64,000 nucleotides of DNA, from positions 1,240,001-1,304,000 of the forward strand of contig NZ_CP125942.1 of the NCBI RefSeq assembly GCF_039602135.1. Reading direction: 5' to 3'. This document shows positions 32,468-35,028 of this stretch, piece after piece. Each line of letters begins with the position of its first letter. The stretch's first letter is position 1. A program made the position numbers and the translations under genes. This DNA comes from Glutamicibacter sp. B1. GTDB lineage: Bacteria; Actinomycetota; Actinomycetes; Actinomycetales; Micrococcaceae. The notes under the pieces were generated by a model. It saw nothing but the letters and a program-made list of their open reading frames with translations, was not told the DNA's origin and made no database searches.

Positions 32468-33328
32468 ATGAACTTTTCGGATTTCATCGACAAGGCCTTT
32501 AACTTCAATGACTACGCACAACTCTTGCCGCTAGTTTCCAACTCACTAATCGCCGGTGCAGTATTAGGGGTCGTTGGTGGCTTGATCGGCATCTTTATCA
32601 TGATGCGCGATATGGCATTCGCTGTTCACGGCATCGCGGAGTTGTCATTCGCTGGTGCCTCGTTTGCGTTGCTCATTGGCGCGGATGTCGTCACCGGTTC
32701 GGTATTTGGCTCGCTTATTGCAGCCCTGATCCTTGGATTCTTAGGGACAAGAGCCCGAGACCGTAATTCCATTACTGGCGTACTGATGCCCTTCGGGCTT
32801 GGATTGGGCATCTTATTCTTATCGTTGTATGAGGGACGTAGTGCGAATAAGTTTGGTCTGCTAACTGGCCAGATTGTCGCTGTTGACGATGTTCAACTCA
32901 ATGGCATGCTGGTCTTGTCGCTAGTAGTTGTTCTCGCCTTGATTCTCATTTGGCGCCCACTAACATTTGCTTCAGTGGATCCAGTGGTTGCAAATGCACG
33001 CGGTGTCCGCACCTCAGGATTATCCATCTTCTTCATGGTGATCTTGGCGCTTGCGGTGGCAGTGACCATCCAGGTCGTTGGTGCACTGCTAGTTCTTGCA
33101 TTGCTTATTACTCCTGCCGCGGCGGCAATGCGCGTTACGTCTAACCCGGTACTGACCGTAGTGCTTTCAATTGCATTTGCGGAATTGGCAGTAGTTGGTG
33201 GAATCTTGCTGGCGCTTGCTGGTGCTCTTCCAATTAGCCCGTACGTCACAACGATTTCGTTCATGACCTACGTTGTTTGTCGCGGTATTGAGTATGCGCG
33301 TTCTCCACGACGCCGCCACCAGGTCTAA
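32468..33328 (+). CDS. znuB: Zinc ABC transporter permease
   Basis: The product is 286 residues with about eight membrane helices and the ABC-3 family signature (GSLIAALILGFLG, later ALLVLALLITPAAAAM). It starts 9 bases after znuC behind AGGAG. It forms the membrane channel of the metal importer, powered by the preceding ATPase. Downstream is a hairpin without a T-run. Confidence 0.88.
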   Translation: MNFSDFIDKAFNFNDYAQLLPLVSNSLIAGAVLGVVGGLIGIFIMMRDMAFAVHGIAELSFAGASFALLIGADVVTGSVFGSLIAALILGFLGTRARDRNSITGVLMPFGLGLGILFLSLYEGRSANKFGLLTGQIVAVDDVQLNGMLVLSLVVVLALILIWRPLTFASVDPVVANARGVRTSGLSIFFMVILALAVAVTIQVVGALLVLALLITPAAAAMRVTSNPVLTVVLSIAFAELAVVGGILLALAGALPISPYVTTISFMTYVVCRGIEYARSPRRRHQV

Positions 33329-33342
33329 ACGATAGTTTGTGG

Positions 33343-33369
33343 ATCGCCCCAGGTCTTTTCTGGGGCGAT
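33343..33369 (+). terminator. Hairpin after the zinc transporter
   Basis: ATCGCCCCAG pairs perfectly with CTGGGGCGAT around seven bases; no T-run follows. It lies between the convergent znuB and DUF222 genes. Confidence 0.6.
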
Positions 33370-33398
33370 TCGTATATCCAACCAACCACTGAGCATGG

Positions 33399-34895
33399 TT
33401 ATGCCGCGAGGTCTTCAACATCCGGCGGACCATCATCTTTTCCGGGTGGTTCACTACCGGGGTCTGGTGGCTGATTCAACCAGGCCTCAAAGGTCTGCAC
33501 CCACTCCGCTTCACTCATGCACTGCTTATAGGGTTGATGAGCGAACCCCGTCGCCGGTGGCGCCGTGGAATGATACGTCGGCCCCATCCCGGTCGCGATC
33601 TTCAACTTATGTAAACCGTTACTGAGGACAAACTCTTGCCATCCCGGGGTTTCCTTGGCTTGATTACAGAACTTACAGCGTCCATCCCCGTTAGTCACAC
33701 ACGTATGCCCACCTAGATACACTTGGGTCACATGATCAATCTCTTCAATGGTTCCGTCACAGAAGGGGGTGCGGCACCTTCGGTCACGCATCCTGATGAA
33801 CTTCTTGAGTTTCTCCGGGAAGATCCGCGCTTTAGAATCCATCGCGATTAGTTCTTTGTCCCCTGGAGCCGTGTAAAGACGAACCAGTTCTGCGGTGGCT
33901 TCTAGGGCGTTGATGAATGCTGGTGGTCGGGTGGTTGCCATTTCCGCCAACGTCATGTTGTTCAGGATCTCTTCACCAGCCAGTAGCTCCCTGGCGTACT
34001 GGGGTGCGATCACCCCGTACCCTTCAAGGTAGGCTGGCTGCCGGTCACCCAAGAACAGGGTTTTATCGGTCATGATCAACCCAACACTGACCTGCACTGG
34101 GACTTTGGCTTCCGGGTGAGTGCAGAAACTCGCGAGGTAGTCCGCTTCAATCTGCGCCCGGGTTCGTTCATCGCCAAGAGATTTCAGGCTCTTCGACCTG
34201 GTTTTCACCGCGTTCTTCATGGCGATCCCTGCGATCAGGGGCAGTTCTGCGTGGATGCTCATCATCCCGGTCGACGGGTGGGGTGTGAACTTGATACGAC
34301 GCTGCTCTTCCGCACTCTTTTGCTCTTTGCACTGATCATCCGAGGCGTAGGTGAGGGTGAAGTCTTTGACCTTGTCACTGATTTTCTTGGTGCCCAAGTT
34401 AGCGAACATGTGTGGGTTTTGGGCGTAGAGGTCATCAAATTCGGTGCGGCGGCGGGCTTTGACCTGGGCTAGTGGGGTGAGGATCGCCCGCATTTGCGCT
34501 TCCGTGAATTCACCACGACTGTAAGCAGCAGCTAGGTGTGGGGTGTCGTTGAACAGGATGCGACAGTTCTCTAGGTATTCGCTGTAACCGTGGGGGTCTG
34601 TTTTGCGGGCTAATGCGATGTTTGCTGCGGCGCCGCGGTTGAGTTGTTTGAAGTTCCCGCGTTCGGTGTTTTCTTGAACGATGGTGATCTCTGTTTGGTG
34701 GGCGAGGGCTGCTTGGTGGTAGTGCAGGGAGGAGATCGCGTTTTCGAGTTGGTTGATGGTCGCTAAGCATTCTTCGGTGGTGCCGTGTTCTTCGATCTGT
34801 GCCAGGGTGGCTTCCATGCCTTTGATCACGGCGGTGAACGCGTCGTGGTGTTCTGGGGTGGGGTTCCCTGGGTTGGGGATCGTTGTTTCGGACAT
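33399..34895 (-). CDS. DUF222 / HNH endonuclease (13E12-type family)
   Basis: The product is 498 residues. A large N-terminal DUF222 region (about 20-340) is helical and rich in charged residues. A C-terminal HNH motif near 370-430 reads RDRRCRTPFC, then IDHVTQVYLGG, and CKFCNQAKETP, with two CxxC pairs expected to bind zinc. HNH proteins of this kind are common, often multi-copy, in Actinobacteria and are related to the mycobacterial 13E12 repeats. Their DNA target is mostly unknown. The start has a leaderless promoter and a LexA-like palindrome just upstream. Confidence 0.85.
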   Translation of the reverse strand: MSETTIPNPGNPTPEHHDAFTAVIKGMEATLAQIEEHGTTEECLATINQLENAISSLHYHQAALAHQTEITIVQENTERGNFKQLNRGAAANIALARKTDPHGYSEYLENCRILFNDTPHLAAAYSRGEFTEAQMRAILTPLAQVKARRRTEFDDLYAQNPHMFANLGTKKISDKVKDFTLTYASDDQCKEQKSAEEQRRIKFTPHPSTGMMSIHAELPLIAGIAMKNAVKTRSKSLKSLGDERTRAQIEADYLASFCTHPEAKVPVQVSVGLIMTDKTLFLGDRQPAYLEGYGVIAPQYARELLAGEEILNNMTLAEMATTRPPAFINALEATAELVRLYTAPGDKELIAMDSKARIFPEKLKKFIRMRDRRCRTPFCDGTIEEIDHVTQVYLGGHTCVTNGDGRCKFCNQAKETPGWQEFVLSNGLHKLKIATGMGPTYHSTAPPATGFAHQPYKQCMSEAEWVQTFEAWLNQPPDPGSEPPGKDDGPPDVEDLAA

Positions 34896-34902
34896 ATTCT
34901 TA

Positions 34903-34937
34903 TTTTACGCCTGATAATCGAATATGTCTTCGATTAT
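34903..34937 (-). promoter_or_regulatory. Leaderless promoter with overlapping LexA-like palindrome
   Basis: Read on the minus strand, TAAAAT (34908-34903) lies six bases upstream of the ATG, with AAGACA 17 bases further up as -35. This is the layout of leaderless actinobacterial genes, and no ribosome site is seen. The -35 region lies inside ATAATCGAA-N6-TTCGATTAT (34914-34937), which contains TCGAA-N6-TTCGA. The SOS box of Gram-positives is TCGAAC-N4-GTTCGA, so the outer bases agree and the inner C/G pair does not. Confidence 0.5.
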
Positions 34938-35028
34938 TTGGTTGCGGGTGGATAACTTTTAGAACACGTTGATGTGACAGGTCAGAGACGGATTGACGGG
35001 TATCTAAAGCTAAGAAACCGGTGGGGAA

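Follow-up and report, generated by a model that had tools for sequence, protein, structure and literature searches.

The locus considered here raises the question of what controls a putative nuclease gene of the DUF222-HNH type, the start codon of which is preceded by a palindrome resembling a LexA operator (SOS box). The stretch analyzed (hereafter, the window; 64 kb) corresponds to bases 1,240,001–1,304,000 of a single contig of 3.60 Mb. Many actinobacteria carry DUF222/13E12 HNH genes, for which, to our knowledge, no function has been settled.

The DUF222-HNH gene and its promoter

The gene and the elements recognized around its start codon were located as follows:

33399..34895, minus strand: gene of the putative DUF222-HNH nuclease, 498 codons
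34902..34907, minus strand: -10 element TAAAAT, followed by six bases and the ATG (34895–34893)
34925..34930, minus strand: -35-like element AAGACA, within the box, 17 nt from the -10 element
34918..34933, minus strand: predicted LexA operator (SOS box) TCGAATATGTCTTCGA, on the gene strand TCGAAGACATATTCGA, 24.8 bits
34891..34928, minus strand: second inverted repeat GACATATTC/GAATATGTC, present in the window, without conservation of the repeat in the genus

The gene is flanked by a Fur-family gene, presumably zur given that it neighbours a zinc-type ABC transporter, and by the converging permease gene of this transporter. Named relatives of its product occur in Glutamicibacter ardleyensis, G. 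nicotianae and Arthrobacter sp. NIO-1057 (96% over 225 residues in the latter), which assigns the contig to Glutamicibacter or its immediate vicinity. The product scored 21.7 bits against Pfam DUF222 (PF02720, E-value = 0.00015), which is below the gathering score of 24.4 bits; since 55 of its 84 aligned relatives matched DUF222 at an E-value of 0.001 or better, it can be regarded as a divergent DUF222 relative. Pfam HNH was matched by 57 of these relatives, and the window protein itself had no HNH match at an E-value of 0.001. In the aligned HNH region of the 84 relatives, the residues D387, H388, N402 and N411, as well as C374, C379, C407 and C410, were invariant, and nuclease activity is predicted from this intact motif. 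The family name 13E12 is presumed here from the DUF222 and HNH profile matches, not from direct comparison with the mycobacterial proteins. The AlphaFold model of the protein (mean pLDDT of 77.6) gave no Foldseek match in the PDB at an E-value of 0.001 or better; sequence-profile matches to solved structures fell in the HNH part (best E-value = 1.8 × 10−5), and an NCBIfam search with three proteins gave no match. An anti-phage defence system was rejected (PADLOC gave 0 families for the two proteins tested), as was plasmid or phage cargo: only distant matches, all below 60% identity, were found in 7 of 72,556 plasmid and 5 of 50,697 phage records.

The perfect 9-base inverted repeat described in the sequence-only reading was recovered at its exact coordinates (ATAATCGAA at 34914–34922 and TTCGATTAT at 34929–34937, 6 nt apart). 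The 16-mer TCGAATATGTCTTCGA begins within one arm and ends within the other, with 22 nt between the end of the box and the ATG; on the gene strand, the order is TTATCCAC, TCGAAGACATATTCGA, 22 nt and ATG. Inspection by eye agreed with that reading also in that the ATG follows TAAAAT after six bases and that no evident ribosome site precedes it, an arrangement that fits a leaderless promoter; the promoter and a transcript start at the ATG are predicted features. The box overlaps this predicted promoter and covers its -35-like element.

Conservation was assessed in 30 distinct promoters of the genus, chosen for a box that scores 8 bits or more and is separated by 22 nt from the ATG of a frame of 300 codons. 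Mean conservation was 97% at the ten core positions (a partly circular figure, as the selection favours the box and fixes its distance from the ATG), 87% at the six inner positions, 88% in the -10 hexamer and 57% in the surroundings. The -10 element was TAAAAT in 11 promoters and TATAAT in 11 others, and AGACAT (box positions 5–10) was kept in 25 of the 30.

Comparison with the SOS operators of the genus

The LexA matrix was constructed from 72 sites (34 distinct) at lexA, recA, dnaE2 and uvrA in 18 Glutamicibacter genomes, with no DUF222 sites among them. The window box scored 24.8 bits, compared with a training-site median of 21.0 bits (minimum, 10.2 bits); when each gene was left out in turn, the medians were 23.8 (lexA), 17.0 (recA), 25.0 (dnaE2) and 16.2 bits (uvrA). 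The matrix scan proposed in the sequence-only reading was made over the 64-kb window, where the palindrome was the best match, 13 bits ahead of the runner-up 16-mer (11.9 bits); the own genome was covered by a pattern search. Boxes of the TCGAA-N6-TTCGA type were found at the lexA, recA, dnaE2 and uvrA promoters of the 18 genomes. The lexA boxes included TCGAAACAGTGTTCGA (own genome), TCGAAGACTTGTTCGA and TCGAAGACGTATTCGA, the last of which (genome G005) differs from the window site in one spacer base. The dnaE2 boxes (TCGAATACGTGTTCGA and variants) lay about 400–475 nt upstream of the matched segment, and the uvrA boxes were TCGAAGCAGTTTTCGA and variants. The recA boxes (TCGAACATCTGTTCGG or close forms) were found in 16 of 18 genomes by a two-mismatch consensus search and in 18 of 18 by a one-core-mismatch search, which spanned stretches of 20–110 nt, so that a few of these sites may be due to chance.

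The LexA operators of Corynebacterium are 16-bp palindromes with TCGAA-type arms. The window site is similar to them and to the operators of Streptomyces venezuelae, for which the accessible text of the source gives the LexA motif tCGAAC-N4-GNNCGa (PMC9380542). In contrast to actinobacterial operators of the form TCGAAC-N4-GTTCGA, it has G and A in place of C6 and G11 (TCGAAG...ATTCGA on the gene strand), and these changed inner positions had been taken in the sequence-only reading as a ground for doubt. The departure counts against the LexA reading, but such changes also occur in SOS operators of the genus itself: G at position 6 is present in 9 of 18 lexA boxes and 16 of 18 uvrA boxes of the genus, and the inner departures therefore do not exclude LexA membership here. 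Placing a -35 element inside a LexA operator may come at a price, namely G at position 6 and an unvarying ACAT.

The bare TCGAA-N6-TTCGA core was not clearly enriched in the own genome (14 sites versus 10 for the reversed pattern), and the evidence is consequently carried by position and conservation. The 14 sites comprised four DUF222 promoters, lexA, uvrA, the stretch preceding dnaE2, a putative mobile element, four sites in reading frames and two others. The site in the putative mobile element, TCGAATATATATTCGA (L003 1501–1516; own genome 1,215,388), lies just upstream of an ImmA-like peptidase gene with an adjoining serine recombinase (both identified by eye), and this element may be under LexA control.

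In the 3.6-Mb genome, the exact 16-mer was found four times, always directly preceding a DUF222 gene; this distribution and the lead of the palindrome in the matrix scan exceed what chance would give. The scoring of related genes included 50 loci (L015–L064), of which three duplicated others and two cut by contig ends (L016 and L064) were left out. The box was present in all 26 distinct complete Glutamicibacter genes with at least 45.9% identity matched over most of their length (10.2–25.2 bits), and it reached 15 bits or more in 23 of them. Conservation of the palindrome in close relatives, raised by the sequence-only reading, was thus borne out for the core and not for the outer arms: of the 30 promoters of the genus, a single one showed full complementarity of the outer four bases, and these arms were rejected as part of the operator. 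The comparison with other DUF222 genes of the strain favoured LexA, the four copies having the 16-mer in common; three distant DUF222 paralogues have no box (6.2, 5.0 and 3.2 bits). Among the more distant genes, L034 and L038 (other genera) had boxes of 26.2 and 25.1 bits, and L029, L030 and L033 had scores of 17.6, 15.1 and 13.7 bits; the remainder were low or negative, and L041, 47% identical over the HNH part only, scored 2.9 bits. It should be noted that in L060 (copy D of genome G014) the box is intact and the usual start codon position reads ACG instead of ATG. In a survey of named genomes (80 loci, one dropped as cut by a contig end, several overlapping the genomes of the earlier locus set), 15 bits or more were reached at 15 of 79 DUF222 loci versus 4 of 471 control windows, with 25.4 bits at L219 and L244 and 19.1 bits at L247 of Mycolicibacterium. 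The other 64 loci were below 15 bits, which, together with the low scores of the three distant paralogues, indicates that LexA control is not family-wide.

According to the matrix score, the boxes of the relatives and the similar boxes at SOS genes of the genus, the LexA reading is supported, and the palindrome is most probably (about 0.9) a LexA operator on a leaderless sigma-70-type promoter of the DUF222-HNH gene. LexA binding, repression and induction at this promoter are predictions from these comparisons. In undamaged cells, LexA bound to TCGAAGACATATTCGA would cover the embedded -35 element and shut off the gene; upon DNA damage, RecA-stimulated self-cleavage of LexA would free the promoter, and the four box-carrying copies of the own genome would be induced together. 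A palindrome bound by a different regulator, or by the product of the DUF222 gene, and only similar to a LexA box would account for the occurrence of the exact 16-mer at DUF222 genes only, with a constant spacer, as well as for inner positions that are not classical and for the greater spacer variation of the real LexA boxes of the genus. However, the inner positions of the DUF222 boxes in other species vary as they do at lexA, dnaE2 and uvrA, the embedded -35 element explains the constant ACAT, and DUF222 genes of other genera (L034, L038, L219 and L244) are preceded by LexA-type boxes that are perfect or almost so, which makes such an operator improbable.

The second inverted repeat, for which a further layer of regulation had been suggested, is present exactly as described (GACATATTC at 34891–34899 and GAATATGTC at 34920–34928), and the suggested layer was not upheld. 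Of the 30 promoters compared in the genus, 9 had the perfect repeat and 11 had it with a single deviating base. A second LexA operator was rejected, with scores of −7 to −14 bits for the 16-mer at the start codon in six promoters; an RNA hairpin was rejected by reasoning, as a leaderless start would leave the upstream arm untranscribed. Some DUF222 homologues (L247, L229, L188 and others) have a LexA-like box across the start codon (ATG TTC GA), half of the operator being coding, as in TAGAACACATGTTCGA of Mycolicibacterium setense (L247). The start region of the window gene, AATATGTCCGA, resembles a decayed half-site of this kind, which would explain the second repeat.

Copies of the gene and their concerted evolution

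The window gene (copy A) and the copies at 3,085,592 (B) and 2,886,488 (C) are about 96% alike over 1.66–1.77 kb, and the fourth gene with the same 16-mer, paralogue D, is 47% identical and has different surroundings. The shared stretches of the window are as follows:

33277..35018, minus strand: stretch common with copy C, 95.8% over 1765 columns
33343..35000, minus strand: stretch common with copy B, 96.4%
33343..33369, minus strand: terminator-like hairpin ATCGCCCCAG...CTGGGGCGAT, the 3' end of the stretch common to A and B

Copies A and B were found at matching places in four species, with same-locus flanks 79–95% alike between species and flanks of A versus B at most 53% alike. Their coding sequences (L046, L047, L051–L059) were 97–100% alike within a genome and 75–91% alike between species. 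In the tree, A grouped with B within each of three species (bootstrap/SH-aLRT 99–100/99–100), and in the own genome A grouped with C (98/97), B being adjacent to this pair. In the other three species, copy C was not homogenised (67–77% to the A and B copies), and the C copy of the own genome does not lie at their place (flanks 42–49%). Thus, copies A and B are in concerted evolution, most simply explained by gene conversion, and the agreement of the A, B and C boxes is not independent evidence, since the copies evolve in concert. This agreement over 1.66–1.77 kb would also be expected if only a promoter were conserved and the palindrome were a by-product of shared descent and gene conversion. 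Against this stand paralogue D, which keeps the 16-mer in different surroundings, the core conservation of 97% versus 57% around it (partly circular, as the rows were selected by the box), and the TCGAA and TTCGA arms around the -35 element, for which a plain promoter has no need; a conserved promoter without an operator is thus very improbable.

The site of copy A, followed in 18 genomes, was empty in six, occupied in eight, cut by a contig end in one (G012) and differently arranged in three. Copy C of the own genome (L046 4080–4133) includes the final 18 codons of the ZnuB-like permease gene adjoining copy A (tblastn E-value = 3 × 10−5; 144 bp at 87%, E-value = 1 × 10−42, a stretch that also holds the terminator), so that it probably derives from the A locus, part of the adjoining gene having been copied as well; no significant permease tail was found in the C copies of the three other species. 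A hairpin similar to that of the window is present at the empty site of genome G010 (L264), between zur and the permease gene, and hence the terminator of the host was apparently taken along with the copies. Three near-identical copies with an HNH nuclease gene, empty sites in relatives and neighbouring sequence carried along in copy C are features that a transposable element would also show, the palindrome then being its end or the target of its nuclease. However, the box lies about 70–85 nt inside the shared stretch and not at its edge, the edges differ between copy pairs with no terminal repeat noticed by eye, and A and B occupy the same places in four species. That the palindrome is such an end or target is hardly credible, and the LexA operator remains the preferred reading of the palindrome.

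The upstream element and the possible role of the family

A further element precedes the box:

34944..34955, minus strand: upstream element TTATCCACCCGC, 48 nt from the ATG, sharing 8 of 12 bases with TTDTCCACATAG of Arthrobacter

An element of the form TT[A/T/G]TCCAC, which resembles DnaA boxes and may be a plain DnaA box, recurs before DUF222 genes. Of the 30 Glutamicibacter DUF222 promoters, 22 have TTWTCCAC or GTATCCACA ahead of the box, and paralogue D has a similar element closer to its box. In the survey, 24 of 79 loci had TTNTCCACA close to where the frame opens (mean of 0.4 and maximum of 3 in 300 letter permutations), and a narrower count gave 22 of 79 loci versus 2 of 733 control windows. 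The pattern TTTTCCACATAGG had 12 sites in 7 of 80 genomes of the family and 0 in the reversed control, with a DUF222 gene at 5 of the 12 loci.

The sequence TTDTCCACATAG was present at 24, 9 and 6 sites in three genomes of one Arthrobacter-type genus, with 0 sites for the reversed control. These 39 sites (38 loci, L286–L323) gave 37 distinct rows, one of them without a frame of more than 90 codons. The frame started exactly 48 nt after the element in 20 of the 37 rows and at 47–50 nt in 25; the script preferred starts at 44–50 nt, which inflates the latter figure and not the peak at 48 nt. The downstream genes identified with Pfam encoded RecA (L307, 47 nt), a ComEA-like protein (SLBB and HHH_3, L311), two RcpC/CpaB pilus proteins, two M23 peptidases, a DEAD-box helicase, DUF4192 and several DUF222 proteins, as well as two proteins with a phosphoribosyltransferase domain, which are presumably ComF-like. 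Genes outside this theme (an enolase-like protein, DUF2461 and a methyltransferase) were also preceded by TTDTCCACATAG. The element is thus common to recA, comEA-like, comF-like and Flp/Tad pilus genes in genomes of the Arthrobacter group, and it is possibly part of a competence or DNA-repair regulon. In the genus of the window, TTNTCCAC was found upstream of recA in 14 of 18 genomes, and within 150 nt upstream of an open frame it was found for comEA and for RcpC in 0 of 18 genomes each; the competence idea is therefore not supported for these two genes in this genus. Upstream of recA (L096–L112), 14 of the 18 genomes have TTGTCCACA or close forms at a distance of about 115 nt from the start. 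Judged by eye, recA and some DUF222 genes seem to carry a TGTC/TAnnnT promoter, a type known from mycobacterial damage genes (RecA-NDp/PafBC).

The link of mycobacterial 13E12 HNH genes to LexA, mentioned in the sequence-only reading, has a source: in the accessible text of a study of Mycobacterium tuberculosis, the LexA targets include part of the 13E12 family, which has 10 HNH genes, and a role in mismatch repair is proposed (PMC4181829). The case described here is similar in that DUF222/13E12-type HNH genes are connected with LexA, by prediction in this study; it differs in the genus, in the position of the box, usually over the -35 element and 22 nt before the ATG, and in the changed inner bases. 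The REP13E12 repeats of M. tuberculosis, described in the available part of a preprint as gene-conversion hotspots with 87 events and naming a putative prophage attachment site (PMC13061034), are likewise multi-copy, and the Glutamicibacter copies evolve in concert. Phage P1 Ref, a RecA-dependent HNH endonuclease tied to recombination according to the accessible text of two papers (PMC4713147, PMC3973344), offers an analogy of function only, as an HNH nuclease linked to RecA. Among the titles found in the literature search, none dealt with DUF222 genes of Glutamicibacter being controlled by LexA; the genus and LexA occurred together in a paper on plasmids, as far as its accessible text goes. 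LexA-linked 13E12 genes were already reported in mycobacteria, and Glutamicibacter provides a further, testable case.

As a tentative and rather unlikely proposal, the DUF222-HNH proteins could be recombination nucleases of a joint programme of SOS response and DNA uptake. Damage would lift LexA from their genes, and in competence they would be called by a second regulator through the TTDTCCACATAG element located 48 nt ahead of the start codon. Their cuts would promote recombination, including conversion of their own copies, and this conversion would maintain the similarity of the family members in each genome. The competence regulon of Micrococcus luteus is described as currently unknown in the accessible text of a 2026 paper (PMC12849477), and the TTDTCCACATAG element may offer a way into a regulon of this kind within the same family. 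Taken together, the predicted LexA operator, the concerted evolution of the copies and the element common to recA and competence-type genes point to recombination linked to damage or DNA uptake, and their combination is of interest because it would make the function of the DUF222-HNH genes directly testable.
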